From assembly GCA_019454045.1 (NCBI GenBank), contig SKCR01037637.1, forward strand, positions 1-64,000: a DNA stretch of 64,000 nucleotides, read 5' to 3'. The notes beneath the pieces were generated by a model. It searched no databases. It was not told the DNA's origin and saw nothing but the letters and a program-made list of their open reading frames with translations. The stretch comes from Zanthoxylum bungeanum. Its lineage: Eukaryota; Streptophyta; Magnoliopsida; Sapindales; Rutaceae. Of the stretch, positions 1 through 64,000 are shown piece after piece. Each line of letters starts with the position of its first letter. Within the stretch, counting starts at the first letter, position 1. The position numbers and the translations under genes are program-made.

Positions 1-1226
1 TAAGTCTTCAAGGAAGACATACATGGAAGGAAACATACCAACGTACAAAGCTAGGCTTGTAGCGAAAGGTATCGTTATCAACATTGTGTTGATTACGGTT
101 CAACCTTTTACCTGTTGCCATGGCAAATCCATTTGGATAATGCTGTAGCTGCACGTTTCATTTATGAAATGTGTCAGTTAAAGATTAAAATCGCTTTTCT
201 TAAACGGAAACCTTTTTTGGAGGATGTTTACAACATCCTGACGATTTTGTCGTACTAAAACCAGCAAACAAGGTTTGCAGGTTATTCGATCCATGTTTGG
301 ATTGAAGCAAGCATTAGGTTTTTGGAACTAACGTTTTGATGTAATCATAATGGTGTATGATTTAATTGAAAATGAAAAATGATTCTTGTGTATATAAGGA
401 GGTTAGTGGGAGTGCACTAATAATAAATATCCTAAAATAATGATAATATATGTCATTTCTTGGAAATGAAATTCCCAGAAAACAATCGGCGAAAGCTTGG
501 CTTTCGAGAAAAATTCTCCGAAGAATTCTTGGGAGTAACAACCATTATTCTAGGAATAAAGATTTACCGGGATAGATTAAGTTGTTAAAACTTTGCGAGA
601 ACTCGTACCTTGAAAAATGTACGTGACCTGGTGTCTCATACGCTTTGAGCATATGGATTCACAATCAGGCCAATCCAAGTGATAGTCACTAGATTGATGT
701 TAAGAACATCCGTTAGAATCTTAGAGATCTAAGGATGCTGTCTTAATCTGTGGAGAAGGAGAACTTGAAGTGACTGGGATCACTACTGCAAGTTTCCAAA
801 CCGATAAAATGACTAAAAGTCGCAAACGGTACTATACAGTTTGAATAACGGTACAGTGAGCTGGAAAACATCCAAGCAAGATACTGTTACCTAATAAACA
901 ACAAATGCAGATTATTACTACAGCTGAGGCAGCAATAGAAGCCATTTAGGTCGATAATAAATCTAATTAGATTAGATATAGTTCTGTTAGCAGCTGAGCT
1001 ATGCGTCAGCGCATGCAAAAGAATTAATGGTCTCATCACGATCCAGATACATACTTTCGACGATTCATCTGATTTGTTCGGATCATACATCGTGGCGATG
1101 TGATGATCGTATAAATCGCATCAGACGATAATCATACAAATCCGCTGACGAAAGTATTTCCTCAGTAATTTGAGCCAACCGTACATAGTTCAGGTGTCAA
1201 GCACTCGAGTGACTGGCTATAGGCCA
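1..1226 (+). pseudogene. Z element: decayed copia reverse transcriptase and RNase H
   Basis: This is the 3' end of a Ty1/copia pol region, in pieces. Bases 20-90 read through the RT start with the landmark YKARLVAKG. Bases 255-330 resemble the KVCRL...LKQA stretch of copia RT, with stops. Bases 895-965 resemble the RNase H segment TTAEAAIEAIW. Frameshifts and stops are frequent, and no YVDD motif can be read, so part of RT is missing or badly mutated. The polypurine tract and 3' LTR follow directly. Element A (51166-52560, minus strand) is a sister copy of the same region. No product is expected. Family assignment is firm, exact domain edges are not. Confidence 0.8.
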
Positions 1227-1236
1227 AGTGGGAGAT
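1227..1236 (+). other. Z element polypurine tract
   Basis: The purine run aagtgggagat lies directly against the LTR terminus TGTTGG. This is the plus-strand priming site of a copia element and fixes the left LTR boundary and the + orientation. Confidence 0.85.
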
Positions 1237-3313
1237 TGTTGGACAGTTATGACCCATAGCATCACTATTTTATACAGATCATGGTGTTGTTGTACAAATT
1301 AACTATGTGACAAAGGAGATTGCACTCTTATCATTTGTGATTAGATCACCTAGATGAATAAATGATGAGAGGTCCTTATGATTTGTTCCTTGAATGAGAA
1401 TGATATGAGACAGTATCAATCAATGAAGGATAAATCATTAAATATCCCTAGTCAGAGTATTATCGAGACTGGACTCGATAAATACGTAAAAGACTAGTAT
1501 TGCACTTGTGCGCGTTGTGAGGGCACAACGGCATAGTTCTCATATTTTAAGTATTGGATACTATGCAAGTGCGATAGGAGGTTGTGTTTCACCAATGGTA
1601 CGGGAAACAACTTCGCTCGGGATAGACCCTCTCGGAATCCCATTGGTAGTATGACTGTGTGTCTATGGGAGTCTGACATCAGGGTAGGTGTATTTGGTCT
1701 TAACCTGAGACTTGCACCGCTAATACTTACGACAATCAATATACTTTGGTTGAGGTCATCCTGGGCTTTAACCGGTTCTGAGTACGCCAATACTGGGTAT
1801 ATTGAGAATCGTAGAGTATTGGGTGTGATGTCAGACGGAAGTATCACTCCAGTCATAGTGGAGATGATGTCATACTGGATACGGTATTAGTGCTCTTAAG
1901 TGCTGCGCGGCCATCGGGATATTATGACTAGGTCATGTGTATCCGATTATAGAGACTAGTTTCCAGACATCCGACAAGTGCTTCGTACGAGGCAGACACT
2001 ATTCCAGCCCCAGGCCTAGCACGTGATCATCCGATACTGGACAGAAATACGCAATACTACGGTATACTACGCTTGATACAGATCCTTTATTCCTGTAAGG
2101 ATATTTCCGGAGAATTGGGTAGGCATGGCTTTGCTAGAGGCCAACCTGTCTTGTAAATCGGTATAAAACATAGTACGAGTTCATTCCGGTACTTACGTGT
2201 TCGGATAGTACCGACGGCGATTTACTGCCAACATATCCGGGGATCTTATGGTCGTCGCTTCCCAATGATTCACCGATGACGTATGACTCACACTTTAATT
2301 AATCTGGGATTAATTCGATGAGAGAGAAAATTAATCTGGGATTAATTACGAAGATATTTTATCTTGGATAAAATATCATCTAAAGAGAGAAAATGATTAA
2401 TTTGAATTAATCGGGTAAATTAATATATTCGACATATTAAACGAAATTGGATTTCGACGCGGAATTGAAATTGGATTTTAATTCGGGCGAACGAATTAAT
2501 TTAGAATTAATTCGTTAGCGACGTGAATAGTGAATTCACTAGGCGTAATCATTTAATTACGACACGACGGAAAATTCGCTAATTAGGAATTAGCGAACCC
2601 GAGCCCAAGAGTGATTGTGAGTGCATTCGCATTTCGAATTTAAATGCGGCACGCAAATCACATCAAGCGACAAATCATTAGTCGCATCAAGAGTCAAATC
2701 ACTTGTCACTTTGAGTGATGTGACTTGACAACATGTCACTTTAAAAGTTGATATGACTTGATGGATAATGATGTTGGAGTGTGGAACACTCAAAGTGATT
2801 AAAGTTATTTTATTTGACTTTTTGAAAGTTAAAATAAATGGTAAATCATTTATTTATTTTGGAAAAATATATAAAGGATATTGGATATCATTTTACCAAT
2901 TAACAAACACATCTCTCCTTCATCATTTTCTCTCCATTCATGCCCAAATAGGGCTGTGAAACAGTCACTATTTCAGCTCACTTTGCCGAGCAAGGGAAGT
3001 AATTTTTGAGGGTTTTGTGGCAAAATCCAAGTGCTAGCACATTACCGAGAGTTATACGAAGGTGTTAGGGAAACCCACCCACGATCCGGGAATCGTTTGA
3101 CGAAGATTCAAAGCTCAAATTCATGGAACAAAACTGAAAATACAAGGCAGTGGACTGCTGCAGTTTGGCGCCCATTGGAGGTGGAAATTTCATTTTTGTT
3201 CTTCATCAAATCGTCTCAACCGATCGATGTGAGTATTCCGCTATCTCCTTTGATGTATTCACACATTATTTTCATGCTTGTTATGATCTTGGGACCTCAT
3301 TAAGAAACCAACA
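1237..3313 (+). repeat. Z element 3' LTR (about 2.08 kb)
   Basis: The LTR runs from TGTTGGACAG to ...ACCAACA, with TG...CA ends. It follows the polypurine tract and has the same sequence plan as the LTRs at 49154-51155, 56943-58010 and 58011-60089. A TATA-like tatataaag occurs near 2867-2876. Before it lies a cluster of short repeats of a tcaagtgacaa-like motif (about 2640-2770), and before that the hairpin run listed separately. The ORFs inside are chance ORFs. Directly after the LTR comes sequence matching the leader of elements D and C, so Z appears inserted in D. The expected TSD is aggaa (3314-3318); its partner lies outside the window. Confidence 0.88.
2297..2597 (+). other. Serial hairpin array inside the Z LTR
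   Basis: About ten short inverted repeats follow one another, mostly with 2-3 nt loops. Stem pairs: 2297-2304/2308-2315 (loop tgg), 2329-2336/2340-2347 (tgg), 2353-2363/2367-2377 (11 bp, ttg), 2395-2402/2405-2412 (tg), 2442-2447/2451-2456 (tgg), 2462-2471/2475-2484 (tgg, one mismatch), 2490-2501/2505-2516 (12 bp, tag), a 12-nt perfect palindrome at 2529-2540, 2544-2549/2556-2561, and 2575-2584/2588-2597 (10 bp, agg). The stems differ from one another. The same series is in the LTRs of A and B. The role is unknown. Confidence 0.85.
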
Positions 3314-11433: not shown

Positions 11434-11683
11434 GTCCCACTTTGATGGGACTTGTGCAGTGTGTGACAGTGACAATCCTATCAAAGTCCATGCAATGTAT
11501 TTTTACTGACCTGGCTCGCCAGCTGCCACTTGGTTTGCTCGTTGTGTTGAGTTGATTTTGTTGTGAGGTGGTCCATTCTCAAACCAAGTTGAAGAGAGGT
11601 GGTCCATTCTCAGACTGTTTCGATGAGAGGTGATCCATTCTCGAATCATTATTGTGGTGTGGTCCATTCCTGAACCGTGCTCC
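11434..11683 (-). other. F internal copy 1: 3' UTR end next to the LTR
   Basis: Begins with the polypurine-tract region (11436-11452 in + coordinates). It then contains degenerate 35-40 bp repeats around ggtggtccattctc (11565-11670), which grade into the 48-bp array. Non-coding. Confidence 0.7.
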
Positions 11684-12525
11684 ATTCTCGGAGTGTCATT
11701 CCCGACTTGTTCATTCCCGAACTGTGTTTCCATTCTTGGAGTGCCATTCCCGGCTTGTACATTCCCGATCTGTGTTTCCATTCTTGGAGTGCCATTCCTG
11801 GCTTGTTCATTCCCGAACTGTGTTTCCATTCTTGGAGTGCCATTCCCGACTTGTTCATTCTCGAACTGTGTTTCCATTCTTGGAGTGCCATTCCCGGCTT
11901 GTTCATTCTTGAACTGTGTTTCTATTCTTGGAGTGCCATTCCCGGCTTGTTCATCTCGAACTCTGTTTCCATTCTTGGAGTGCCATTCCCGGCTTGTTCA
12001 TTCATGAACTGTGTTTCCATTCTTGGAGTGCCATTCCGGCTTGTACATTTCCGATCTGTGTTTCCATTCTTGGAGTGTCATTCCCGGTTTGTTCATTCTC
12101 GAACTTTGTTTCCATTCTTGGAGTGCCATTCCCGGCTTGTTCATTCCCGAACTGTGTTTCCATTCTTGAAGTGCCATTCCCGACTTGTTCATTCCCGAAC
12201 TGTGTTTCCATTCTTGGAGTGCCATTCCTGGCTTGTTCAATCTCGAACTCTGTTTCCATTCTTGGATTGCCATTCCCGGCTTGTTCATTCCCCGAACTGT
12301 GTTTCCATTCTTGGAGTGCCATTCCCGGCTTCTTCATTCCTCCGAACTGTGTTTCCATTCTTGGAGTGCCATTCATGGCTTGTTCATTCTCGAACTGTGT
12401 TTCCATTCTTGGAGTGCCATTCCTGGCTTGTTCATTCTCGAACTGTGTTTCCATTCTTGGGGTGCCATTCCCGGCTTGTTCATTCTCGAACTGTGTTTCC
12501 ATTCTTGGAGTGCCATTCCCGGCTA
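11684..12525 (-). repeat. 48-bp minisatellite, array 1 (about 18 units)
   Basis: The tandem unit can be described as gtgtttccattcttggag followed by tgccattcccggcttgtt and cattcccgaact, 48 bp in all. I count about 18 unit starts, with occasional 47- or 49-bp units. Because 48 is divisible by three and the unit holds few stops, long ORFs (up to 284 codons) open in several frames on both strands. They are a by-product and not genes. The position is the 3' UTR of F in sense. Confidence 0.93.
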
Positions 12526-12830
12526 AACTGATACTGATGTATACCCGGAGTGTCGTACCTGGCTGATCTGATATCTCCATACCCGGAGTGCCGTACCCGG
12601 CTGAACTGATATGAACCAATGTGGGCCTTGCCCCCAAAATGCAATACCCGACAGAACTGATACTGAACTATTGTGGGCCTCGTCCCTAGAATGCCATACC
12701 CGATAGAACTGATATTGAACTATTGTGGGCCTCGCCCCCATAATGCCATACCTGGCAGAACTGATATTGAATCGTTTGTGGACCTCGCCCCCAGAATGCC
12801 AAACTCGACAAGTTTGATACTCTTTTTCAA
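12526..12830 (-). repeat. ~53-bp tandem repeat, array 1
   Basis: After two shorter units (about 39 bp, around cccggagtgccgtacccgg) come about four units of 53 bp. They contain gaactgatactgaactattg, then tgggcctcgcccc, then agaatgccatacccg. The end of each unit resembles the 48-bp unit (gtgccattcccggc), which suggests common origin. Each unit holds a small GGGC-ctc-GCCC hairpin. Confidence 0.82.
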
Positions 12831-13984
12831 CACATTATAGTGCTTCTCTTCGAGATAATCTTGATAGCTAAACATATTTTTATCCTCAACGGGTGCTTTG
12901 CGTCAAAACCAAATAACCTTCAAGGTACTTGATATACTCAACTCCAATCGTCTAAATGGGTGATCTGAACTAGACTCCTAGTGTGTGTGTGCTAAGGCTC
13001 TTTCGCAGCTTATCCTTAAGCAAGCCAACTTGATGATTTCGCTTCGGAGAATCGGACTAGAAATCTAACCAACCTGGATGTCTCGATTATATTCTGTGAT
13101 TTCTTCGGCATACTCAACATGATATGGTCTTCTTTTTTCTTCTGTCTCTTTCTCTCTATTTAGAACTTTTTTTTTCTTTTTTTCTTTTTTCTGACACACC
13201 TACCCTTTAAGGTAGCATTTCTCTTCGTGGTGGTCCTAATACTCGCCCACATGTAGCTTCACGCTTAACGGTTATAGACGGTATATTTTTTCCTATTGTT
13301 TTCATCGCATAGACTTTTCTTTCTTTATTTCCCAACCATATCTTGTATCGTAGTAAAAGCAAATCAGTGTAGACATCCAGGCAAACGGTCATTCACCGAT
13401 CCACCATCTCTTCAACTAGTCATCTCATCAATCGCTCAGGATTCTACTGTTGAGATACCTTTATCAAGTGCTTCATGAGTCTAGTCGAGATCAATCCATT
13501 CTGAATACCGGATAAGGGCGCGTCTCACACTTCTCATTTCTAAGGCTTCTCCCTGCAACACACAATGTCATTACCGGACATATGTCTATCTACCAAAGAT
13601 TTCTCTCTCTCTTTTTCTTTATTCTACCTTTTTTTTTTTTTACTTACTCCAAGAAATTCTTCTTTTGTGGGCTTCGCCTCCTGAGATCCATACTCGAAAC
13701 TCAAACTCATATGGGCCTCAACCCTCATATTACCACCCGAATTATAACACTGATGTGGGCCTCAGCCCCAGGATTACTATCCGAATCCGATACTATGCTT
13801 TCGCTGTTTCTGATGGGCGTGTCTTTGCCGCTTTCTCTTTGCTTCTTCAAAACTTGTGAATACAAAACAGAACAAACACCAAAAGAATGCAAAATATGTG
13901 TTACGTGTATGCATGCATGCATGAGTTTTCTTATCCCGTTGGGTTAGGTCTTCTGTCAATCATCTTGGTGACTGCTCAGTCTCA
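12831..13984 (-). other. F internal copy 1: 3' UTR between the arrays and the integrase tail
   Basis: Non-coding sequence, pyrimidine-rich in + orientation, with T runs at 13165-13190 and 13625-13650. Isolated relatives of the 53-bp unit recur at about 13667, 13710 and 13754 (gtgggcctcagcccc type). The same sequence follows array 2 at 20581-21751. I recognise no protein domain. Confidence 0.65.
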
Positions 13985-14110
13985 GGCAAAATATTGCTTC
14001 AATCTGTCAATATTGATCGGCTTGGTGAACCCATTCCCTTCCAAGTCTGACAGCCTCACTGCCCAGTTTCACATTAATGAACGGCTATCTTGTCTGTTCT
14101 GCTTGCTTCT
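13985..14110 (-). pseudogene. F copy 1: integrase C-terminal tail
   Basis: In sense the frame reads WAVRLSDLEGNGFTKPIN followed by IDRLKQYFA and a stop (tga, complement of 13982-13984). This is the characteristic end of Tat/Athila-type Ty3/gypsy integrases (YRLADLDG...NGDRLKKYY-like, from family knowledge). Upstream pol is missing, and this tail lies only a few hundred bases from the Gag fragment, so RT, RNase H and most of integrase were deleted before the element spread. The equivalent in copy 2 is 21752-21850. Confidence 0.78.
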
Positions 14111-14479
14111 TCCAAAAATTCACCGGGTTCGATATATCGATGAGTATCATAGTACCAAGGTTGAATTCTTTTGTCAAATATACTCATGTTGTAGAGATTC
14201 AGGCAAGTTAACGAAATGAACATCTTTATTATCATTAAGAAAAGGTTCTAAGAAATAGACAAAATCAATGTCTCCATTAATAAATACTGGATCACAACTG
14301 AATTACATCTGAGAGACAAACATCTCCATAAATTGCAACTTTATTTTCCCCTGCTTTCGTATTTCCTTCGACCATCAATTTCTCCAGGTACAGCAGTTTC
14401 TCTTCCCATTCACTTCTCCCTTTTGCAACCTCCGTCTCATCACTGTCTGAGAAATTTTCCCAAAGATCTTCCCTCTACT
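14111..14479 (-). other. F copy 1: junction between gag and integrase remnants
   Basis: About 370 bp with no readable domain, matching 21880-22245 in copy 2. It should contain the breakpoint of the large pol deletion. I cannot locate the breakpoint without an autonomous relative. Confidence 0.5.
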
Positions 14480-15149
14480 TTATTTAACTTTTACCACTAA
14501 TGCCCCGTATCCCCATGCGAGAAGTTTGGTAGTTGTGGGTTTGAAGGACAAGGCTGTCGGGTAGGCCGGAGTCAATAATGTGGGTAGGTGGAGGTTTTTT
14601 GTGTATGTTGGCTTGTTCTTTTTCCGGGTTGGGTATTTTATGGGTGTCAATCAGATATTGGATCTCATGCCTCAGGCGAGGGCAGTTATTAGTTTCATGG
14701 CCTCTTTGCTGGTGGTAGTGACAGTAAAGGTTTAGCTTAAGGTAGTGTGGTACAGGAAGGGAATCATGAGTCCTTGCTTTTCCAGCTCTTTAAACACCTC
14801 TAATAAAGGTCTACCAAGTTTGGAGAATCATTTGTTTCTAATAGGGGCAACCTCAGGGGAAGTGGGCTTGGTCTTCGAAGGTTCCCCAATGATCTTTCCA
14901 TTATGATTGTTCATCTCTCTGTTATCGGATATACAGATTGGTCTCCAATTGATCCAGGCGGGATCTCTCATTGGCTGACTCGTTCATGTTGGTTGATGGT
15001 CTTCTGACAAGTCTCTCTCCTTTCATAACCCAACGAGAATCTATGATGTCTTTTTGAGACATAGAGGGTGTTAACATGATGTATGTATGTATGAGGTGCA
15101 TGAAATGCATGTAACATATAGAACATACTAAATCAATTAAAATTTTCAA
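14480..15149 (-). pseudogene. F copy 1: gag remnant
   Basis: Parallel to copy 2 at 22247-22975 but more damaged. The N-terminal segment (14922-15149) reads to NMNESANERSRLDQLE and then leaves frame. A deletion of about 90 bp compared with copy 2 removes the following helix. The knuckle region (14640-14740 in + coordinates) is recognisable by alignment with copy 2, and it lacks about 25 bp near 14757. Non-functional. Confidence 0.72.
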
Positions 15150-15770
15150 ACAAATAGGCCCATTACCATTTTAGAAGCTTTTGGGCTAAATGTCATAGGA
15201 GTGAACTCGTCCCAGTTTAAATGGCCCAACGAGTTCGCATCTCACGGCAAGGAGCCCAACTACATCCAAATGGTAATGTTTTGAACACAAGCACAAAATG
15301 GCCAATCAACATTTAGAGGCCTTTGGCCCAATCGTCATAAGATACGTTCTTGACCCAGTTTAAATGGCCCAACAAGCCCATATCATATGACAAATTGTCC
15401 AAATGCATCCAAACGATGATGTTCCCAAACACAAGCATAAAGATATTTCAAGCATAAAACAGTAAATTCTACAAGGTGGCCCATCAACATTTCAGAAGCT
15501 TTGGGCGTAATGGTCATAGGATACGAACTCGCCCCAGTTTAAATGGCCTAACAAGTTCGCATTTCTGACAAAAAGTCCAATTGCATCCAAATGAGGATGG
15601 TCCACAGGCACATGCTCAAGGAAATAATTGTTACTTTAGCCATACAACCCCGATCTATGGGAGGGTTCGTGAGAGTATAGACAAAGACTCTTGCTGGCAA
15701 AGGATTGCCCACAACTAGGTCTCCCCACTCAAGGGTTCGAGCAACCAAACAAGCGCACCTTTTTTATACC
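15150..15770 (-). repeat. F copy 1: leader tandem repeats (3 copies, ~140-180 bp)
   Basis: Three imperfect repeats start near 15157, 15299 and 15477. Each holds ggcccatcaacatttnagaagc, then gtcataggatacgaactcg, then ccagtttaaatggcccaac. They lie between gag and the PBS in sense, so they belong to the 5' untranslated leader. The same three are in copy 2 (about 23005, 23145, 23323). Confidence 0.75.
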
Positions 15771-15805
15771 TTGAGGTATGTGCCAACAAGTCATGGTGTG
15801 TGACT

Positions 15806-16025
15806 AACTGTCAAATGGATTTCTTGTTGCAGATTCCCCAGAGGGAGGGTGGAGCGAACTCTCTTAAATACCCAAGCCTCTTAGGCTCTTATCGCTTGGT
15901 GACAGGAAAAAGCAACAAGTCCTCCAAATTAGTCTGTCACAACAGGACAAGGGTAGTAACTATTTAGGTGCCTCCACAGATTTTCCTCGAAAGGTAGTGA
16001 ATGAAGGAAGACACCAAACCATTAC
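15806..16025 (-). other. Leader module shared by F and the copia element C (copy F1)
   Basis: About 220 bp with blocks ctgtcaaatggatt, attccccagagggagggt, cctcttaggctcttat, cttggtgacaggaa, cctccaaattagtc and aaaggtagtgaatgaa, in the same order and orientation as 45754-45983 in C. In both elements the module lies between the PBS and gag, in the sense direction. No long ORF, no tRNA-type A/B boxes and no poly(A) tail were seen. Function unknown. Confidence 0.85.
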
Positions 16026-16135
16026 CTAGCCTTAAAATGTCTTTGATCAAACCCCCATTTTACCTATTGTAGACACGGTTAATTAAAACACAAATTCAAA
16101 CATTATAAGAGAGTATTTCGGGGCCGATTCTCTAT

Positions 16136-16152
16136 CCCTAGTGGAGTCGCTA
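16136..16152 (-). other. F primer binding site, copy 1
   Basis: In sense tagcgactccactaggg, three bases after the LTR end ...CACCACA. Copy 2 has the cleaner tggcgactccactaggg (23977-23993). This PBS type resembles the one I recall for Ogre/Tat elements (tRNA-Arg assigned there) and not the Met-initiator type of the copia elements around it. Confidence 0.75.
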
Positions 16153-16155
16153 GAC

Positions 16156-19100: not shown

Positions 19101-19616
19101 ATTGGTTATGATTGATTTTAATTAGGAATAATATTTCTTTAATTTAGGTATAAGATTTTAATTATATTAGTTTAATTTAGATTTAATTTAATTGGTATTT
19201 AATTTGTGTTGGATTGTAATTTGTTGATGACTTAATTAATATTTTATTTAATTTAATATTTTATTTAGTTAGTATATCATTTAATTAATTATTTATTTAA
19301 TTTGGATGTCTTTTAGGGCCTTGGCGTGTGGGCCAAGGTGGTGATGGTGTGGGCTTTGTCTTGGTGGGTTATGTGTTGTGTGGACTAGGTGAGTGGGTTT
19401 GGGCCAAGGTTAAAAGGTTTGCGGGTTTTTTTAAGGCCAAGTGCTCTAAACGGAGGTCCAACAAGTAAGCTTGACGCTAAAAAAACGAATAAAAAATCTA
19501 ATGAAATACAGATTCCCTTCCGACGTCCGTTTTCCGTAACATCCTCGATTAAAAAAGTAGTGCATCCAAACTGAGACACATCATCGGGTTTCACATGCAA
19601 AAATGCAATGCCTACA
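16156..19616 (-). repeat. F element middle LTR (3461 bp)
   Basis: Full-length, from tgtggtgacacagg to tgcctaca in + coordinates. It holds five ~80-bp subrepeats (about 17090, 17240, 17370, 17550, 17735), an AT-rich half (18990-19310) and two TAGGGTTT motifs (18882, 18977). Compared with LTR3 it lacks about 75 bp near 18190 and about 175 bp near 18810. A 150-codon Pro/His/Ser-rich ORF on the minus strand (18361-18813) is not kept in LTR3, so I do not treat it as a gene. Confidence 0.9.
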
Positions 19617-19863
19617 GTCGCCCCCACTTTGATGGGACTTGTGCAGTGTGTGACAGTGACAATCCTATCAAAGTCCATGCAATGCATTTTTACTAACCTG
19701 GCTCGCCAGCTGCCACTTAGTTTGCTTGTTGTGTTGAGTTGATTTTGTTGTGAGGTGGTTCATTCTCGAACCAAGTTGAGGAGAGGTGGTCCATTCTCAG
19801 ACTGTTTCGATGAGAGGTGATCCATTCTCGAATCATTACTATGGTGTGGTCCATTCCTGAACC
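19617..19863 (-). other. F internal copy 2: polypurine tract and 3' UTR end
   Basis: In sense the last bases are cccatcaaagtgggggcgac followed by TGTAGGC of the LTR. The purine-rich aaagtggggg is the plus-strand primer site. The rest repeats the ggtggtccattctc degenerate units seen in copy 1. Confidence 0.72.
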
Positions 19864-20395
19864 GTGATCCATTCTCGGAGTGTCATTCCCGACTTATTCA
19901 TTCCCGAACTGTGTTTCCATTCTTGGAGTGCCATTCCTGGCTTGTTCATTCCCGAACTGTGTTTCCATTCTTGGAGTGCCATTCCCGGCTTGTTCATTCC
20001 CGAACTGTGTTTCCATTCTTGGAGTGCCATTCTCGGCTTGTTCATTCTCGAACTGTGTTTCCATTCTTGGAGTTCCATTCCCGGCTTGTTCATTCTCGAA
20101 CCATGTTTCCATTCCTGGAGTGCAATTCCCGGCTTGTTCATTCTCGAACCCTGTTTCCATTCTTGGAGTGCCATTCCCGGCTTGTTCATTCCGAACTGTG
20201 TTTCCATTCTTGGAACTGTGTTTCCATTCTTGAGTGCCATTCCCGGCTTGTTCATTCTTGAACTGTGTTTCCATTCTTGGAGTGCCATTCCCGGCTTGTT
20301 CATTCTCGAACTGTGTTTCCATTCTTGGAGTGCCATTCCCGGCTTGTTATGCTCGAACTGTGTTTCCATTCTTGGAGTGCCATTCCCGGCTAAAC
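19864..20395 (-). repeat. 48-bp minisatellite, array 2 (about 12 units)
   Basis: Same unit as array 1 but fewer copies: about 12 unit starts, one of them truncated near 20205-20228 where cattcttgg meets aactgtgtttcc early. The length difference from array 1 shows array expansion or contraction after the internal region was duplicated. ORFs of 117-202 codons here are repeat by-products. Confidence 0.92.
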
Positions 20396-20580
20396 TGATA
20401 CTGATGTATACCCGGAATGTCGTACCTGGTTGATCTGATATCTCCATACCCGGAGTGCCATACCCGGCTAAACTGATCTAAACTAATGTGGGCCTTGCCC
20501 CCAGAATGCCATACCCGGCAGAACTGATACTGAACTATTGTGGGCCTCGTCCCCGGAATGCCATACCAGGCAAGTTTGAT
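20396..20580 (-). repeat. ~53-bp tandem repeat, array 2
   Basis: A shorter version of 12526-12830, with two ~39-bp units and about two 53-bp units with the gggcctygyccc motif. Confidence 0.78.
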
Positions 20581-22975: not shown

Positions 22976-22989
22976 ACTAAATCAATTAA

Positions 22990-23600: not shown

Positions 23601-23645
23601 TTTTTTATACCTTGCGGTACGTGCCAACAAGTCATGGTGTGTGAC

Positions 23646-49153: not shown

Positions 49154-51155
49154 TATTGGAGTTTCTACGGTCCCGAGGATCCATTATCAAGCATAAAACA
49201 ACATAAGAATACATCAAAGAAGTTGCGGAATACTTACGTTGATCGGTTGAGCGATGCGACGAACATAAAAATCCAAGCTTATCACCTCCAAGGCTCACGA
49301 CAGTGAGCAGATTTTTGTCTCCAAAATTCGACCATGGTCCTTCATTGATGCTCCAAGCTTTCGAATGGTGATTCCATGCTCACGGGTGCGGTTCTCTATC
49401 ACTTTCGCAAGACTCCAATAGCGTGCTAGTACTCCGGAAATTTTGCCACAAAATTTCCTTTGCTTCTATTTTGTTCTCGACTTTCACCAAAAATGAAGAA
49501 GAAATTGGCCTTGAGGCCGAGAGTTAGAATAGATGAGAGAGAGAAGAAGTGTTGTGTTGGTGGTTGGATAAAATGTGTATCTAATGCACTTATTTGATTT
49601 TCAAAAAATCAAATAAAGATATACCATTTTGCTTATCCAAAAAGTCAAATGGCAATAATGCCAACAACCACTACCATCAACTATTCACATCAATCAAGTG
49701 ACAAGTTGTCACATCAATCAAGTGACAAGTAATTTGACGCTTGATGTGACTTACGGGCCGCACTTGAATTCGAAATACTAGTGGGCTCGCAAACACTCCA
49801 GGGCTCGGGTTCGCAAATTCCAAATTAACGAATTTTCCGTTGCGACGCAATTAAATAATCATGCGTAGTAAAATCACTATTCGCATCGCTAACGAATTAA
49901 TTCTAAATTAACTCGTTCGCCCGAATAAAATCTAATTTTAATTTCGCGTCGAAATCTAATTTCTTATAATATATCGAATATATTATTTTATCTATTAATT
50001 CAAAATTAATCGTTCTCTCTCTTTAAATGATATTTTATCCCAGATAAAATATCTCTGTAATTAATCCCAGATTAATTTTTCTCTCTCATGTAATTAATCC
50101 CAGATTAATAAAGTGCGAGTCATACGTCATCGGTGAATCTTCGGGAAGCGACCTATAATATCCCCTGATATGTTGGCAGTAAATACTGTTATCGGACTAT
50201 CCGAATACGTACGTACCTAGTACTACGTTTTACCATTTTACAAGACAAGGTTGGCTTCTAGCAAAGCGCCATGCCTACCCAATTCTCCAGAAACATGCTT
50301 ACAGGAATAAGCAATCTATATCAGACGTAGTATACATAGTATTACATATCTCGATCTAGTATCGGATGTCACATGCTAGGCCTGGGGCTGGAATTGTGTC
50401 TACCCCGTACGAAGCACATATCAGATCTCTGGTAACTAGTCTCTATAATTGGATAATCATGATCTAGTCATATTATCCCGATGACTGTAGTACATAAGAG
50501 AACCAGTTCCGTATCCTACGTGACCATCATCTCCACTAGGACTGGAGTGATACTTCTGTCTTGACATCACACCCAACAAACTACGATTCTCAATATGCCC
50601 AGCAGAGGCGTACACAGAACCTGTTAAAGCCCTGGACAACCAAAACCAAAGTATATTGATTTTCGCAAGTATTAGCGATGAAAGTCTCAGGTTAAGAGCA
50701 AATACACCTACCCTGATTTCGGACTTCCATAGACACATAGTCATACTACCAATGGAATTCTGAGGGGTCTATCCAGAGCGAAGCTGTTTCCGTACCATCG
50801 GTAAACACAACCTCCTATTACACTTGCATGAATATCCTATACCCAAATATATGAGAACTATGTCGTTATGCCCTCACAACGCGCACAAGTGTAATACTAG
50901 TCTTTTCCATATTATCGATGTCCAATCTCGATAATACTCTGACTAGGGATATTTAATGATTAAACCTTCACGGATTGATACTGTCTCATATCATCTCAAT
51001 CCAGGAACTAATCATATGGACCTTCTATCATTTATACATCTTGGTGATCTAATCACAAATGATAAAAGAGCAATTTCCTTTGTCACATGGTTAATTTGTC
51101 TAACAACACCATGATCTGTACAAACAGTGATACTATGGGTCATAACTGTCCAAAA
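49154..51155 (-). repeat. A element 3' LTR (2002 bp)
   Basis: In sense TTTTGGACAGTTATGACCC ... ACTCCAATA. It matches the Z LTR (1237-3313). It contains the hairpin series (about 49810-50110) and a doubled 20-bp word tcacatcaatcaagtgacaa (about 49687-49726). Confidence 0.9.
49810..50110 (-). other. Serial hairpin array in the A 3' LTR
   Basis: The same order as in Z. Clear units are 50029-50039/50043-50053 (11-bp stem, loop cca, that is tgg in sense), an 8-bp aattaatc/gattaatt stem with the same loop near 50060-50078, attaatt-caa-aattaat near 49994-50010, and aacgaattaatt-cta-aattaactcgtt near 49890-49917 with one mismatch. Confidence 0.8.
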
Positions 51156-54300: not shown

Positions 54301-56931
54301 ATCTAAAAATAGATATATGAAGATCCTTCAATTTCTATATCATAATTAAGGATCTAATCTTTAGTTATGATTAAGAAATTAAGGAATCTATTTGGCAAGC
54401 TTTATGGATTAAGCACTAAAGTTATCATCACATGAATCTTCCAAAGATCATGCTTTACTATTTGCTCACCTCCGGGCTTAGGCCTAAGATGTTATTTTAT
54501 CTAATAAAGTAACTTCTCAGTTTTCAGGACTATCCTGAAATTTTATTCCCAATTTGAAAATTAAAATCGTTTAAATATATTTTCACCCAGGATTATGTTT
54601 TAAACACCAATCTTTCAATTTATCCTGATTTTAAAAGTCCAACTATTTAATCAACGATGTCAGGTACTATTTAATATAATGATTACTACAATCCAACTAT
54701 ATAATCAACTATATTATAATTGGTTAATTTAATTATATTGATTACTATAATCCAATTATAAAATCAACCATTAATTGAAATAGTTTGAATACAGCCCAAC
54801 TGTTTAATTAAAACAACATTAAATATTAGTCCAACTAATATATTAATTTATTTGACGAAATATTTGATATGAGCGTGTATGGCAAGTATCTAAACGAAAT
54901 TGCAAATCTAATACTTGCCTCCCACTATTTTTCGGCGAACCTCTAACCCATTGTTGAGTACTCAGGAAACTTTGTTTCCTAGTGGGCTAGGATCCCGTTA
55001 AATAACACACAATCTTGAATTTGGCCAATAAATTGTATGATAATTAACTAGGTAGATCTCTAAGATCAATTGGATCTCATCCGATTCCTAGATCCAGTAG
55101 GTGGACATCCAAGTCCGAAACATATATCTTATATATGCCAATATATCCAATATATTTCCTAACCTTTTTTTCCTCTGAATCAACTAAGCCTTGGCTTTGG
55201 CACAACAAGCTTAATGATTCCAGTTAAGTGGAACCCAATGACCTTGAAAAGCTTCGTAATCAATGTCGATGGACAAGAAGTGATCTTGACTTTGGCCAAC
55301 AAATCACAACTTGGAAAAGACACCGATATGGAACAAAGCCTTCATGATTCAAACACATCCGCGACAGACAAAGGTCTTGAATTTGGCCAACAAACCAATG
55401 CCAATCTTAGATCTTGAGTAAGAATCACTCAATGGAAGGAAAAACGCTTAATATTTTGTGTGCAAAATGGCAACCAATTTATTATCTTTGTTATGGTCTC
55501 ATCATCATACACCCTTAAACATGCATTCTAAACACAGAATAAGGCACGTATAAATAAATAATAATGATATACGGATGGATACTTAACACAATGATCCTAG
55601 ATCAAATCTCCCACTTTCTTCTCTCCCGCTAGCACATGTATTACTTCTACCCTTTACATAACACTTCTAAAGAAACCTCATTTACATTGAGGGGAATAGG
55701 TGAGAAAAGAAATACACAGAGTAAGGAGGTAATAGGCTGGACACGCAGGTCCAATTTAAATAAATTTCAAATTTATTACAACAATTTCTAAAATTGCCCC
55801 ACTCATCTAATATCCATTCAATATACATTATTCATGCATCGCAACCATGTATTCACACAAGCATATTATCAATCAATCTAATCAAATTAATTAATCTGAT
55901 AATTAATGACCATCCAATGTTCAAACAACGATTTGATTTTGCGCGAGTCAAACTTGTTTTACAAATAAGTACTCAAAGTATGAATTCTCGAATTATATTA
56001 AACTACAACATTAAATCCAATTTAACTTGTATTTAATACTAATCCATTTATTTAATTCCAAATTAAATAATACACTTTATAATGAACCTTTGCGACTTAG
56101 ATTCCAAATCTAATCGTTACGGGTCTCAAAGTCCGATTAACATCCATTGTCGTCTAATTAAAGTCTAATGGGCTTTCAATTAATTTCTTAAGGCTTGGCC
56201 TTCGGCATCCAAAGCCCAATCAAGGAATAACCCCATCAGCCTAGAAATCAATTTCGGCCCATTAGGCCCAATTAAACTTTAAAGGCCCATTCGTCATTTT
56301 TGAATTTATGGTTAAGGTTTTGGGCCCAATTGGATCCAACCAATATGCCTAAACCAATCTTGGTACAACCAGGCCCAATAAGCCCAATTATAATATTTAA
56401 GCCCAATTTCCAAAATTAGCCCAATTAATTTAATTCCAAAAATTCCAAATTTCTCAATTAAATTAACAAAGTATAATGTCATAATGAATTACCTAAATCA
56501 ATATTTCCAAAACATCAATTAACCTAATCAATCATGCTCATTATCATAAAATATGTCCAACAGATTTTAACAAAAAATCAAACCCAATTTCATGCTTTCT
56601 TTGTCTCGGTAATTTGGGGTTATTTATGTCCGATTCGGTTTCAATCCAATTAAATCCACTATCGACATTAAATCAACATTTCCAATCGTTTCCAACTCAT
56701 CCAATGAATCAAAAAAAAAAAAAAATCCAAGACATTAGGGCATCTTGAGTATTCGGCCAAGCCAACCCATTTGGGCAAAATTATTCCAAATCAATTTTCA
56801 TGAAATTGATCCAATCAAACTTTAATACAACATCTTTGAAGCATACTTTATCAAACAATTCAACCAAATCATGCAAAAAATCAATTTACCCAATTTTAAC
56901 CCTAAATTCAAGTTTCATGCTTTTAACTCGT
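54301..56931 (-). other. A element leader / unrecognised gag region
   Basis: About 2.6 kb that mirrors 60101-62740 in B. It is rich in ttaattaa words and in repeats of gcccaatt/ggcccatt (56210-56420). The paired ORFs 55214-55417 (+) and 61605-61808 (-) encode similar 67-residue peptides, but they lie on the antisense strand and have no known domain, so they probably only reflect the repeat. I cannot place the gag start. Confidence 0.55.
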
Positions 56932-56942: not shown

Positions 56943-58010
56943 TATTGGAGTTTCTACGGTCCCGATGATCCATTATCAAGCATAAAACATCATGTGAATA
57001 CATCAAAGAAGTTGCGAAATACTTACATTGATCGGTTGAGCAATGCGACGAACATAAAAATCCAAGCTTATCTCCTCCAAGGCTCACGGCAGTGAGCATA
57101 TTTTTATCTCCAAAATTCGGCCATGGTCCTCCATTGATGCTCTAAGCTCCAAGCTTTCGAATAGTGATTCCATGCTCACGGGTGCGGTTCCCTATCACCT
57201 TCACAAGACTCCGATAGCGTGCTAGCACTCCGAAAATTTTGCCATAAAATTTCCTTTGCTTCTCCTTTGTTATCGACTTTCTCCAAAAATGAAGAAGAAA
57301 TTGGCCTTGAGGCCGAGAGTTAAAAGAGATGAAGAGAGAAGAAGTGTTGTGTTGGTGGTTGGATAAAATGTGTATCTAATACACTTATTTTATTTTCAAA
57401 AAATCAAATAAAGATATACCATTTTTCTTTTCCAAAAAGTCAAATGGCAATAATGCCAACAACCACTACCATCAACTATTCACATCAATCAAGTGACAAG
57501 TTGTCACATCAATCAAGTGACAAGTGATTTGACGCTTGATGTGACTTGCGGGCCGCAATTGAATTCGAAATGCGAGTGCGCTAGCAAATACTCCAGGGCT
57601 CGGGTTCGCTAATTCTAAATTAACGAATTTTCCGTTGCGACGTAATTAAATAATTATTCCTAGCAAAATCACTATTCACATCGCTAATGAGTTAATTCTA
57701 AATTAACTCGTTCGCCCGACTTAAAATCTTTTTTAATTTCACGTCGAAATCCAATTTCTTATAATATATCGAATATGTTATTTTATATATTAATTCCAAA
57801 TTAATCGTTCTCTCTCTTTAAATGATATTTTATCCCAGATAAAATATCTCTGTAATTAATCCCAGATTAATTTTTCTCTCTCATGTAATTAATCCTGGAT
57901 TAATAAAGTGCGAGTCATACGTCATCGGTAAATCTTCGGGAAGCGACCCATGAGATCCCCGGATATGTTGGCAGTAAATACGGTTATCGGACTATCCGAA
58001 TACGTACATA
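56943..58010 (-). repeat. A element 5' LTR, truncated (1068 bp)
   Basis: Corresponds to the PBS-proximal half of the family LTR, including its hairpin series (about 57600-57905). It stops at gaatacgtacatacc and switches to the opposite-strand LTR of B. Confidence 0.9.
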
Positions 58011-58014: not shown

Positions 58015-60089
58015 TAGCGTGACTATTTATACAAATCATGGCGTTGTTGTACAAATTGACAAAGGAGATTGCCTCTTATCATTTGTGATTAGATCACCTA
58101 GATGCATAAATGATAGGAGGTCCATATGATTAGTTCCTGGATTGAGATGATATGAGACAGTATCAGCCCACGAAGGATTAATCATTAAATATCCATAGTC
58201 AGAGTATTATCGAGATTGGACATAGATAATGCGTAAAAGACTAGTATTACACTTGTGCGCGTTGTGAGAGCATAACGACATAGTTCCCATATATTTGGGT
58301 ATAGGATACTCATGCAAGTATAAAAGGAGGTTGTATTTTACCGATGGTATGGAAAACAGCTTCGCTCTGGATAGACCCCTTCGAAATTCCATTGGTAGTA
58401 TGACTATGTATCTATGGAAGTTCGAAATTAGGGTAGGTGTATTTGGTCTTAACTTGAGACTTACATCGCTAATACTTGTGACAATCAATATACTTTGGTG
58501 TTGGTCATCCAGGGCTTTAACAGGTTCTATGTACGCCTCTGCTGGGCATATTGAGAATCGTAGTGTATTGGGTGTGATGTCAAGATGGAAGTATCACTCC
58601 AGTCATGGTGGAGATGATGTCACGTAGGATACGGTACTAGTACTCTTAAGTACTGCAGTCATCGGGAAATTATGACTAGGTTATGTATATTCGATTATAG
58701 AGACTAGTTACCAGACATCCGACATGTGCTTCCTACGGGGCAGACACAATTCCAACCTTAGGCCTAGCGCGTGACATCCGATACTGGATCGACATACACA
58801 ATACTACGTATACTACGCCTGATATAGATCGCTTATTCCTGTAAGCATGTTTCTGAAGAATTAGGTAGGCATGACGTTTTGCTAGAAGCCAACCTTGTCT
58901 TGTAAATCGATAAAAACGTAGTACTAGGTACTTACGTGTTCGGATAGTCCGACGACCGAATTTACTGCCAATATATCCGGGGATCTCATGGGTCGCTTCC
59001 CGAAGATTCACCGATGACGTATGACTCACACTTTATTAATCTGTGATTAATTTGATGAGAGAGAAAATTAATCTGGGATTAATTACGGAGATATTTTATC
59101 TGGGATAAAATATCATTTAAAGAGAGAGAACTATTAATTTGGAATTAATCGATAAAATAATATATTCGATATATTAATCGAAATTGGATTTCGACGTGGA
59201 ATTAAAATTAGATTTTAATTCGGGCGAATGAGTTAATTTAGAATTAATTCATTAGCGACATGAATAGTAATTATGCTAGACATGATTATTTAATTATATT
59301 AGATTTAATTATGAAGCAACGGAAAATTCGTTAATTTAGGATTAGCGAACCCGAGCCCGAGAGTGTTTGCGAGCGCATTCGTATTTCGAATTCGAGTTCG
59401 GCACGTAAGTCACATCAAGTATCAAATCACTAGTCACTTCAAGCGCAAATCACTTGTCACTTTCAGTGATGTGATGTGATGTCTAGTCACTTTGAGTGCC
59501 TTGACAACTTGTCACTTAATTGAGTGAATAGTTGATGGAAGTGGTTGTTGGCATTTATGCCTTGACTTTTTGCATTTGGTAAATTAATTATTTGATTTTT
59601 GAAAATAAAAAATTGTGTATTAGATACACAAAGCAATTAAGACAAAAAAATAACACTCTCTTTCTTTGGCTACCTTACACGGTTTTGGAGCCAATTTTCT
59701 CTCTTCTCTCACACGGTCTAGGACCAGTTTTCCTCTTTTGTTTTCTGCCAAAAACCGTGAGCATGGAGAAGGAAAATAATGATTTTGTTGCATAATCTAG
59801 AGTGCTAGCACACATTAGAGTAATCCTAAGGTGATAGGGAAACCTACTTGTGAGCTTGGAATCACCAAATGAAGCTTGGAGCTTGGAGCACACTTGGAGA
59901 TGGCCGAATTTGGAGGAGCAAAAATCTGCACTACCGTGAGCCTTAGAGGAGATCAAAGGGCTGAAAAAGTTTTTATTCTTCGATGTATTGCCTCAACCGA
60001 TTGATGTAAGTATTCCTCAACTTCTTTGATTGTATTCGCACATGTGTTTTATGCTTGAATCGATCCTCGGGACCGTAGAAACTCCAACA
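58011..60089 (+). repeat. B element 5' LTR (about 2.08 kb, first ~16 bases missing)
   Basis: Collinear with the Z LTR from cccatagc onward, ending ...GAAACTCCAACA. It includes the hairpin series (59029-59352) and a variable block of tcactt/aagtgac words (59405-59525). It is directly followed by the PBS. Confidence 0.92.
59029..59352 (+). other. Serial hairpin array in the B LTR
   Basis: Clear units: aattaatc-tgg-gattaatt, an 11-bp gatattttatc stem with loop tgg (59090-59114), attaatt-tgg-aattaat, taatata-ttcga-tatatta, cgaaat-tgg-atttcg, and gaattaaaat-tag-attttaattc (perfect here, mismatched in Z). The unit corresponding to the Z 12-bp stem has one mismatch. Confidence 0.85.
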
Positions 60090-60090
60090 A

Positions 60091-60100
60091 TGGTATCAGG
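60091..60100 (+). other. B element primer binding site
   Basis: tggtatcagg, one base after the LTR. Met-initiator type with one change. Confidence 0.85.
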
Positions 60101-62740
60101 GCGAGTTAAAAACATGAAACTTGATTTAGGGTTAAAATTGGGTAAAATGTTTTTGAGCATGATTTGGTTAAATTATTTGATTAATTATGCTTAAATGATG
60201 TTGTATTGAAGATTGGTTGGATCAATTTCATGAAAATTGATTTGGAACAATTTTCCCCAAAATCCTTAGCTTGGCCGAGAGGTATACTAGCCCTAATGTC
60301 TTGGGATTTTGATTTTTGATTCATTGGATGAGTTGGAATCATGTTGGGAATATTGATTTAGTATTTAATTGGATTGAATTTGGAATTGATTTGAAAAACC
60401 CTATATTGCCAAGACTTTAAAGCATGAAATTGGGTTTGATTTTTATTAAAATGTGTTGGACATGTTTTAATGATAATGAGCATGATTGATTAGGCTAATT
60501 GATGTTTTGGAAATATTGATTTAGGTAATTAATTGTTTAATACATTTTTGTTAATTTAATTGAGAAATTTGGAATTAAATTAATTGGGCTTAAATTGGAT
60601 TTGGGCTTTAAAAGTTGTAATTGGGCTTAATGGGCTTGGTTGGGCCAAGTTTGGTTTAGGAAAATTGGTTGGATCCAATTGGGCCCAAAACCTTAACCAT
60701 AAAGTCCAAATATGACGAATGGGCCTTTAAAGTTTAATTGGGCCTAATGGGCCGAAATTGATTTCTAGGCTTATGGGGTTATTCCTTGATTGGGCTTTGG
60801 TTACCGAAGCCCACGCCTTAATAAATTAATTGAAAGCCCATTAGACTTTAATTAGACGACATTGGATGTTAATCGGGCTTTGAGACCCGTAACGATTAGA
60901 TTTGGAATCTAAGTCGCAAAGGTTCATTAATAAAGTGTAATATTTAATTTGGAATTAAATAAGTGAATTAGTATTAAATACATATTAAATTAGATTAATG
61001 TAGTAGTTTAATTTAATTCAAAAATTCGTACTTTGAGTACTTATTCGCAAAACGAGTTTGACTCGTGCAAAATCAAATCGTTGTTTGAACATTGGATGGT
61101 CATTAATTATCAGATTAATTAATTGGATTAGATTGATTGATAGCATGCTTGTGTGAATACATGGTTGTGATGCATGAATTATGTATATCGGATGGATATT
61201 AGATGGGTGGGGCAATTTTAGAAATTATTGTAATAATTTGGAATTTATTAAATTGAACTTGCGTGTCCAGCCTATTACCTCCCTACTCTTTATATTTCTC
61301 TTCTCACCTATTCCCCTCAATGTAAATGACGTTTCTTTAGAAGTGTAGTGTAATGGGTAGAAGTAATACTTGTGCTAGCGGGAGAGAGGAAATGGAGAGA
61401 TTTGTTCTAGGAACAATGTGTTAAGTATCCATCCGCATATCATAATTATTTTATTTATATGCGCCTTATTATGTGTTTAGAATGCATGTTTAAGGGTGTA
61501 TGATGATGAGACCTTAACAAAGATAATAAATTGGTTGCCAATTTTCACGTGAAAAAACCCTCGTAAAATATTAAGCGTTTTTCCTTCCATTGAGTGATTC
61601 TTACTCAAGATCCAAGACTGGCATTGGTTTGTTGGCCAAAGTCAAGACCTTTGTCCGTCGAGGATGTGTTTGAATCACGAGAGCTTTGTTCCATATTGGT
61701 TTCTTGTCCAAGTCGTGATTTGTTGGCCAAAGTCAAGAACACTTCTTGTCTATCGACATTGATTACGAAGCTTTCCATGGTCAATGGGTTCCGCTTAACT
61801 GGGATCATTAAGTTTATTGTGCCAAATCCAAGGCATAATTGATTCAGAGGAAAAAGGTTAGGGAATATATTGGATATATTGGCATATATAAGATATATGT
61901 TTCGGACTTGGATGTCCGCCTATTGGATCTAGGAATTGGATGAGATCCAATTGATCTTAGAGATCTACCTAGTTAATTATCATACAATTTATTGGTCAAA
62001 GTCAAGATTGTGTGTTATTTAACGAGATCCTAGCCCACTAGGAAACACGGTTTCCCGAGTAATCGATAGAGGGTTAGAGGCTCGCCAAAAAATAGTGGGA
62101 GGCAAGAATTAAATTTGCAATATTCGTTTAATTATTTGCCATACGCACTCAATTCAAATTATTCTTCAAATAAATTAATATATTAGTTGGACTAATATTT
62201 AATCGTTGTTTTAAAACAATTGGACTGTATTCAAACTATTTCAATTAATAGTTGATTTTATAATTAGATTATAATAATCAATATAATTGCATTTAACAAA
62301 TTAAAGTATAGTTGATTATGTAGTTGGACTATAGTAATCATTATATTTAATAGTAACTGACATCGTTGATTAAATAGTTGGACTATTAGAATCAAGATAA
62401 AATTGAAAGATTAATGTTTAAAACATAATCCTGGGTGAAAATGTGTTTAAACAACTTTAATTTTCAAATTGGGAATAATATTTTAGGATAGTCCTGTAAA
62501 CTAAAAAGTTACTTTATTTGATAAAATAACATCTTAGGCCTAAGCCTGGAGTTAAGCAAATAGTAGAGCATGATATTTGAAAGATTCATGTGATGATAAC
62601 TTTAGTGTTTAATCCATTATGCTTGCCAAATAGACTCCTTAATTTCTTAATCAGAACTAAGGATTAGATCCTTAAAGTATGATAATGAAATTGAAGGATC
62701 TTCATAGATCTATTCTTAGATCTTAGAAGTATTAAATTGT
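60101..62740 (+). other. B element leader / unrecognised gag region
   Basis: AT-rich and mirrored in A. It has many ttgggct/gggcctt words (60590-60860). The plus-strand ORF 61594-61842 has no domain I know. The gag start cannot be placed. Confidence 0.55.
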
Positions 62741-63120: not shown

Positions 63121-64000
63121 GCAGAATCTGCTGATTAGCAGGATACTGACTTCATATGAGATTAATATGCGAATTGGAAACGGGACGAAAGTCGCTGTTT
63201 CAACCGTAGATACCTAAGTTTAGGAACTACCATTCGGGTGTGTACTTAAATTAGGAAATTGTTATAATGTAACTAGTTTGACTAGAAACATTATCTCTAT
63301 ATCGAGTATAACTCATTGCGAGTGTACCTTTATATTCTAGAACACTAAAGTGTTTTATTTTATAAAGATGATATTGAGATAAACACATTAGATGTGAAAA
63401 TACAGTATTTATATTTTGAATATGAATAAATCTCAAACATATAATATGACAAACAAGTAGCTCAAAACTGATTTGATCAGAAGAAACTTAATTGTGGCAT
63501 TATTGTCTGGGACACAATTAAACAAGACTCGTATATCCGCACTTTTGAAGAGTGGGTACTAGGACAAATTTGATTCCATTCAAATAATGTCTACGAATCT
63601 AGTTTATAGGGCAAAGTGCCTAAAACACCTTTACTTGGTAAAAGTGTAAGTGTTATCGATCTGTTAGCCCTCGTTCATAGGGACGTAAGTGGGCCCATGT
63701 CTAGGTAGGCTAGAGGTGGATATGAATGTTTCGTGACCTTTATGGATGTGGCATCGCGTTATGGTTATGTGTTTCTTTTTGAAACATAAATCAGAAACTT
63801 TTAGAGTTTCGACACGAAGTAGACAAACAGATCGGTTAAAGTATTAATACCATCACGGTTAGTCCATGATGAAAATACTTAAGCAGTAAGTTTCTCAAAT
63901 ACTTGAAAGAGTATAGTATTCTTTCAATGAGGACTCCTCCCTGAACACGTCAATTTGACAGTGTGTCTGAACAGAGAAACCGAATTTTGTTAGACATGAT
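63121..64000 (+). pseudogene. B element pre-integrase and integrase (cut by window end)
   Basis: The readable integrase part starts with SYIRTFEEWVLGQI (about 63523), GKVPKTPLLGKSVSVIDLLA (63611-63670), LVHRDVSGPMSR (D in place), ARGGYECFVTFMDVASRYGY (63710-63765) and, after breaks, a LTVCLNRETEF-like end near 63955. Stops are frequent. The rest of pol and the 3' LTR lie beyond the window. Confidence 0.8.

Follow-up and report, generated by a model that had tools for sequence, protein, structure and literature searches.

Oriented T-N-G triloop hairpins throughout a Ty1/copia family of Zanthoxylum bungeanum and in a second, unalignable Copia-like family

Short hairpins with a three-nucleotide loop that begins with T and ends with G on the sense strand were found throughout a Ty1/copia family in the window (the whole 64,000-nucleotide stretch of Zanthoxylum bungeanum DNA analyzed here) and in copies elsewhere in the genome. 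A first-pass annotation had described about ten consecutive hairpins at positions 2297 to 2597, in the LTR of one element (Z). Eleven units were found there, but the feature had been placed too narrowly as an LTR array, because in two families or more it extends over the entire element. The array would be the densest cluster of stem-loops spread along the sense transcript of a Ty1/copia element that is abundant in the genome. With a probability of about 0.5, these sense-RNA stem-loops are recognition sites whose U-N-G triloop is read by a protein, perhaps Gag in packaging.

The LTR of Z was identified as a 3' LTR because reverse transcriptase (RT)/RNase H remains, recognized by eye, and a polypurine tract precede it (Table 1). 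Two of the three further array copies in the window represent both LTRs of one minus-strand element (49154 to 58012), and the window therefore contains three elements of the family. At 58010 to 58012, the minus-strand element, cut within its LTR, adjoins a plus-strand element that is truncated close to the beginning of its LTR; this inverted junction is either a rearrangement or an assembly join. A large tandem duplication with a period of approximately 7.8 kb and shorter repeats inside occupies positions 11600 to 28000. Antisense open frames at 55163 to 55417 (+) and 61605 to 61919 (-), 84 and 104 amino acids long and located in two elements, have translations that are clearly alike by eye. 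A search of positions 1200 to 3300 against Rfam returned nothing at the gathering score (best score, 22.2 bits; cutoff, 60).

Table 1. Features of the hairpin-bearing family in the window; fractions are numbers of copies.
Feature	Positions	Strand	Description
T-N-G hairpin, RNase H remains	1087..1101	+	acatcg TGG cgatgt
Polypurine tract	1227..1234	+	AGTGGGAG, then AT, then LTR start
LTR of element Z	1237..3313	+	about 2.08 kb, TGTTGG...CCAACA; 3' LTR, as read from the sequence
Unit 1	2297..2315	+	AATTAATC TGG GATTAATT, 8 bp; TGG loop in 46/59
Unit 2	2329..2347	+	identical to unit 1; TGG loop in 44/59, TAG loop in 9/59
Unit 3	2353..2377	+	11 bp; Z loop, TTG; TGG in 42/59
Unit 4	2395..2412	+	8 bp; Z loop, TG; TGG in 49/59
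Unit 5	2420..2440	+	one A.C apposition in the Z stem; loop TCG in 55/59
Unit 6	2442..2456	+	6 bp; TGG loop in 49/59
Unit 7	2462..2484	+	10 pairs including one G.T; loop TGG in Z; TAG in 29/59, TGG in 20/59
Unit 8	2490..2516	+	12 bp; TAG loop in 57/59
Unit 9	2528..2541	+	6 bp around AT
Unit 10	2544..2561	+	6 bp; 6-nt loop in Z
Unit 11	2575..2597	+	10 bp; Z loop, AGG; TGG in 21, AGG in 20, TAG in 10 of 59
TATA-like box	2868..2877	+	TATATAAAGG; ATATAA[AG] in 11/13 aligned copies
Downstream LTR hairpin	3010..3028	+	gggttttg TGG caaaatcc, one G.T
LTR homologous to Z LTR	49154-51155	-	by sequence comparison
Homologous array	49810..50109	-	3' LTR of minus-strand element 49154-58012
T-N-G hairpin, 5' internal part	56048..56070	-	10 bp, loop TGG; 9-bp homologue at about 60950 (+)
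LTR homologous to Z LTR, cut	56943-58012	-	by sequence comparison
Homologous array	57605..57904	-	5' LTR of minus-strand element 49154-58012
LTR homologous to Z LTR, cut	58010-60089	+	by sequence comparison
Homologous array	59035..59355	+	third element
Primer binding site	60091..60102	+	TGGTATCAGGGC, third element; presumably of the tRNA-iMet type
T-N-G hairpin, integrase region	63903..63927	+	ttgaaagagta TAG tattctttcaa, 11 pairs, one G.T

Tight hairpins, defined as perfect stems of at least 6 bp closing loops of 2 or 3 nt, numbered 8 in the array, compared with 0.58 on average, and never more than 4, among 500 dinucleotide-shuffled sequences. Chance arising from AT-rich words, for which the first-pass annotation had suggested a shuffle check, was rejected, as shuffled sequences reproduced neither the array nor the family-wide loop excess. 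Tandem repetition was rejected as well, since the units differ from one another; the earlier statement that the stems are not copies of each other holds for most units but fails for units 1 and 2, which are identical. Across the eight triloop units in 59 copies, the loop began with T in 436 of 470 cells and ended with G in 455 of 470, and minor-allele frequencies at loop positions 1, 2, and 3 were 0.072, 0.185, and 0.032. Variation was lower in stems (0.034) than in spacers (0.080), while loops overall (0.090) varied as much as spacers and only the loop ends varied less. As had been proposed, the recurring features are the fold and the loop, with T and G kept at the loop ends and the arms free in sequence. 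Unit 10 occurred in a longer form with an extra T-N-G hairpin in at least 26 of the 59 copies.

Loop lengths and loop sequences were then counted in four window segments (18 kb) belonging to the Ty1/copia family of Z. At stems of at least 6 bp, 87 loops of 3 nt were found (4.6 expected), whereas the other lengths from 0 to 12 nt gave 4 to 21 loops each, with about 5 to 8 expected. Loops of 6 and 9 nt showed a milder excess (21 and 17, against about 5). T-N-G loops on the sense strand numbered 63, compared with 0.20 expected and a maximum of 1 in 30 shuffles; the other window elements (29 kb, exclusive of the 11.6- to 28-kb repeats) contained 22 triloops, none of them T-N-G. After homologous sites were merged, 53 distinct triloop sites remained (36 T-N-G, 8 A-N-G, and 0 C-N-A), and at stems of at least 7 bp, 27 of 33 triloops were T-N-G and none was C-N-A. 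A looser stem rule yielded 164 triloops in the four segments, comprising 102 T-N-G, 20 A-N-G, 5 C-N-A, and 37 others; of the 102 T-N-G loops, 40 had G in the middle, 33 had A, 24 had T, and 5 had C, and T-A pairs closed 67 of them and C-G pairs 19. In the sense direction, the family's loops are thus mostly U-N-G, with some A-N-G, and the closing pair is usually pyrimidine-purine. In the RT/RNase H remains (51161 to 53246 [-] and 1 to 1236), 5 of 16 distinct triloop sites were A-N-G, mostly AAG.

Individual hairpins were also recovered in homologous positions. The downstream LTR hairpin has a perfect 10-bp homologue at 49436 to 49458, and the integrase-region hairpin is identical at 53164 to 53188 (-). 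The first kilobase of the LTR was not free of the signature, an idea that was dropped: all eight triloops with 5-bp stems there were T-N-G, and none reached 6 bp in the three window copies, although some triloop stems of at least 6 bp were present in copies outside the window. Palindromic RNA dimer sites are unlikely because G-N-T loops would serve equally well and yet were absent at 6-bp stems in the family segments of the window. A scan of viral contigs for the loop pattern found nothing.

A query of the 3.96-Gb genome with the array returned 3,270 first-look candidates, of which 40 were scored. Triloops were counted in family-matching DNA read in the orientation of the element. At 20 loci (L003 and L005 to L023; L001, L002, and L004 were left out as repeats of other loci), T-N-G and C-N-A loops numbered 360 and 0 among 470 triloops, and the corresponding ratios were 73:1 (L024 to L033), 78:0 (L035 to L041), and 73:0 (L063 to L069). 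L024 to L033 are ten 5-kb stretches picked by contig number (50 kb in total); the family was present in six of them and covered 21 kb, a small sample that gives a hint of the family's share of the genome. The nonfamily part of that sample (28.9 kb) contained 18 triloops, of which 1 was TNG and 2 were CNA. C-N-A loops seen at several loci were rejected as family members, since they lay outside the family-matching parts, some in the second family described below. DNA not matching the family at L003 to L069 contained more T-N-G and C-N-A triloops (43 in L003 and L005 to L023 and 21 in L063 to L069), which were assignable to the second family only in part; further families may carry the T-N-G signature. 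Most LTR copies at L002 to L023 were mosaic, with a start and array approximately 87 to 96% like Z and a 3' part approximately 66 to 77% like it, which suggests exchange between subfamilies; L006 was an exception, with a 3' part 96% like that of Z.

A second Copia-like family was found in parts of L014 and L020 that did not match the Z family, with a primer site (TGGTATCAGAGC) in L020. This family could not be aligned with the Z family, yet it had the same loops and polarity: 12 T-N-G and 3 A-N-G among 16 triloops in L014 and 12 T-N-G and 5 A-N-G among 20 in L020. Two other stretches (L020b and L022b) contained 6 and 4 T-N-G loops among 10 triloops each, and 3-nt loops were not in excess there. 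A query with the second family returned 6,289 candidates, 40 of which were scored. Between L014 and L020 (86% alike), stem pairs were unchanged in 93 of 98 cases (114 of 124 in the reverse direction), and none was changed on both sides. Stop-free frames that we take to resemble an Athila/Tat-type gag were observed beside the hairpin-bearing part of L022 (5861 to 7300).

Covariation between arms was examined in alignments of 7 to 27 rows, in which 368 structural pairs were compared, by column counts, with 48,014 control column pairs from the same alignments at similar distance and majority complementarity. All 15 structural pairs variable on both sides had two standard forms, compared with 421 of 1,080 controls (Fisher test, P of about 1e-6); the blocks overlap, and at least one site was counted twice among the 15. 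In the array (59 rows), 7 of 14 both-variable pairs covaried, against 0 to 3 with slid partners, and the other 7 did not. In a larger copy set with the array excluded (8 to 49 rows per block; raw counts), 22 of 33 both-variable pairs covaried at stems of at least 6 bp, 29 of 43 at stems of at least 5 bp, and 19 of 22 when alleles were present in at least three rows. Hairpins with other loops, likewise by raw count, covaried at 13 of 20 both-variable pairs. Among the array pairs, 2579/2593 (unit 11) was C-G in 22, T.G in 28, and T-A in 7 of 59 copies; 2495/2511 (unit 8) was A-T in 22, G.T in 8, and G-C in one of 31 rows; 2532/2537 (unit 9) was G-C in 24, A-T in 31, G.T in 2, and A.C in 2 of 59; and 2545/2560 (unit 10) shared an A.C intermediate in 29 of 59.

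One-sided stem changes outnumbered two-sided ones. Stem changes without compensation in many copies had been proposed as a sign of chance; uncompensated changes were indeed present in many copies, but two-sided complementary changes exceeded the controls. The two LTRs of one element diverged after insertion, so differences between them are postinsertion changes, and no pair there had changed on both sides. Close copies showed little two-sided change inside the element (0 to 1 between B and C and 0 between Z and A). Lower stem divergence between window copies was dropped as evidence; it comes partly from the choice of perfect stems, because it was also seen between the two LTRs of one element. 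A constraint on the loop ends and the fold is well supported, and the arms, free in sequence, tend to keep pairing.

Mismatch types in the stems were compared as an indication of RNA or DNA. An initial G.U:A.C count of 46:8 was discarded, as its stem rule favored G.U, and was replaced by counts under symmetric rules. In the array, G.U and A.C alleles numbered 25 and 12 (59 rows, P = 0.047), or 14 and 5 when present in at least three rows (P = 0.064). The excess is not that sort of mutation bias, because transitions in unpaired columns were balanced (285 of the kinds that make G.U and 281 of those that make A.C). Outside the array, the counts were 17:14 at stems of at least 6 bp (P = 0.72), 28:20 at stems of at least 5 bp (P = 0.31), and 12:2 for alleles in at least three rows (P = 0.013), so that the support they lend to RNA there is weak; the present window copies gave 16:19. 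Folding energy had no sense-strand preference (z scores of -6.1 for sense and -8.5 for antisense), and positions 1300 to 1620 folded as well (z = -6.7). A related copy, L027, contains a perfect 10-bp stem with a TGG loop within the frame DYLKEYGILSQ, presumably an integrase motif, with a frame shift just upstream; in the homologue of this stem in two window elements, G replaces A in one arm, giving a G.U pair. The single orientation, the kept loop ends with free arms, the internal hairpins, and the stem in the integrase frame are points for RNA.

Assignment of the Z family to Ty1/copia follows from L027, in which an integrase match (rve; E value, 2.5e-7; 31.3 bits, just below the Pfam cutoff of 32.6) lies upstream of a Copia-type RVT_2 match (E value, 2.2e-19). 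Stop-free integrase and RT pieces recognized by Pfam remain in this subfamily (L027, C17900, C4303, C22931, and others), which is younger; 36 of the best 40 array matches are 96 to 100% identical. Eleven internal regions that were examined are coding-dead, because their longest stop-free sense stretches (63 to 125 amino acids) are not much longer than those in one shuffle each (58 to 101 amino acids). Spread of such dead copies by mobilization in trans is the usual inference.

T-N-G hairpins per copy (stems of at least 5 bp) peaked at 2337 to 2536 in Z coordinates and were fewer in the first kilobase and last 300 bp of the LTR. The array lies 270 to 570 bp upstream of the TATA-like box, the likely promoter; if so, the array would be in U3, near the 3' end of the genomic RNA, and not in the 5' leader. 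Placement in the leader, based on a TATA motif at 2162, was dropped, since a motif of that kind was present in 7 of 46 copies, a lower fraction than for the 2868 box. A splice-donor-like GTGAGT at 3229 to 3234, near the LTR 3' end, and its homologous sites (GTAAGT in one) were kept in all 18 copies that could be aligned, a hint that the leader may be spliced.

An RNA structure for packaging or stability, one of the functions first suggested, is still the best guess in view of sense polarity and covariation, although the G.U support outside the array is weak. In the genomic RNA, a protein would bind the loop that each rigid hairpin exposes; this protein might be the element's own Gag, and many weak sites might jointly select the RNA and pack it into particles. 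That the loop reader is a protein acting on RNA can be stated with moderate confidence, and its identity with Gag is a guess. A wider version, in which a genome-wide U-N-G loop code is read by Gag for cooperative packing and the two unalignable families compete for or share particles, letting coding-dead copies spread and fill a genome, is possible but doubtful. The strongest rival, serious if unlikely, is template-switch mutagenesis (the snap-back synthesis of the first-pass annotation): the copying enzyme would fold back at small loops, most easily at T-N-G, and rewrite one arm from the other, with no benefit needed. Such switching can make perfect stems and keep them by multibase compensatory change (PMC8794818). 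It is also favored by the near equality of G.U and A.C in two of the three counts made outside the array, by sites at which several pairs have changed, by the covariation of hairpins with other loops, and by the abundance of hairpins in coding-dead copies. Alone, however, it explains neither the preference for 3 nt nor the T...G polarity; template-switch events underrepresent 3-nt loops (3.5% versus 6.1%) and favor 4-nt loops in the same study. The first kilobase of the LTR, which is also reverse-transcribed, has no 6-bp triloop stem in the three window copies (some occur in other copies), and at some array pairs G.U stands beside two standard forms.

The remaining explanations are less probable. 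Palindromes acting in cis on the promoter as DNA, as proposed for the repeated motifs of Sireviruses, are rather improbable: arms that vary by unit and copy while loop ends are kept are the reverse of a usual transcription factor site, the same hairpins are present in the internal part and the integrase frame, and they have one orientation only. The position of the array upstream of a TATA-like box, as for the Sirevirus motifs (PMC2829016, in part), and an 8+3+8 architecture like CACCGGACNNNGTCCGGTG (PMC10760457, in part) are consistent with this explanation. Still less probable is a role of the stems in slowing decay or fending off host enzymes with no specific loop reader; a structured 3' untranslated region (UTR) element protects the RNA of the Arabidopsis Copia element Evade (PMC12501189), and the array may sit near the RNA 3' end, but stability would account neither for U-N-G nor for the presence of hairpins along the entire element. 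A source of host small RNAs, a role also suggested in the first-pass annotation, or a silencing trigger, kept either by chance or because the host uses it, is highly improbable. Stems of 6 to 12 bp are short for dicing, and the loop polarity would be unexplained, even though LTR regions rich in palindromes are hotspots of small RNAs in maize (PMC10760457 and PMC5311732).

If Gag reads the loops, an LTR retrotransposon would carry a packaging code that is dispersed and degenerate, and packing in trans could allow defective copies to take over a genome. If hairpin-templated copying produces the hairpins, they would record that mutational process at unusual density, and their polarity would point at one strand. 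In both cases, the loop signature is a simple mark for which any plant genome can be searched without alignment.

The first-pass annotation knew of no named LTR feature of this kind; a precedent is the repeated motifs of Sireviruses, which form arrays of palindromes in the LTRs of these Copia elements (Bousios et al. 2010; PMC2829016). According to that study, palindromes with one arm sequence per element cluster upstream of the TATA box in Sirevirus LTRs and are said to be absent from classic elements. Like the Z family, Sireviruses are Ty1/copia elements with many short dyad-symmetric boxes in the LTR upstream of TATA, some copies being internal; unlike it, they repeat one arm sequence within an element, and 12 of the 13 listed there have a CGG-CCG core. 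The Z family has differing AT-rich arms (units 1 and 2 apart) in place of one repeated palindromic arm, a constant oriented 3-nt T-N-G loop, and hairpins through the whole element. The AGGGGGAG polypurine tract of Sireviruses, which stands in several identical copies close to the 3' LTR (with a final A in two of those elements), was not found, nor was their 5' LTR junction, CA-ATTGG-TATCAGAGC; the third element, with the only junction read in the window, has CA-ATGG-TATCAGGGC. The palindromes do lie upstream of a TATA box (TATATAAAGG), but the Z family was not filed under Sirevirus because of the polypurine tracts, the junction, and the motif. In maize, excerpts of PMC10760457 describe miRNA-like hairpin regions with a structure excess concentrated in Copia LTRs and 8+3+8 palindromes; those regions are defined by strong miRNA-precursor-like folding, whereas the Z family has short perfect stems and a fixed loop. 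The ENE triple helix of Arabidopsis Copia93/Evade (PMC12501189, in part) is likewise an RNA structure in a plant Copia element that affects mobility, but it consists of one 3' UTR motif that pairs with poly(A) rather than of numerous hairpins. In the literature listed on the subject, no title or opening of an abstract mentions such a loop signature in LTR elements. In STNV, differing stem-loops along the RNA reportedly share a common loop motif. The dispersed packaging signals of STNV, enterovirus-E, and hepatitis B virus (RGAG loops) (PMC3593212, PMC7793301, and PMC7612645) are accompanied by coat- or core-protein interaction data, while in the Z family, an LTR retrotransposon, binding of the loops is a prediction. 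Many stem-loops with a common loop motif along the genome were found in the Z family as they are in these viruses, and dispersed packaging signals would be the closest analogy in mode of action.
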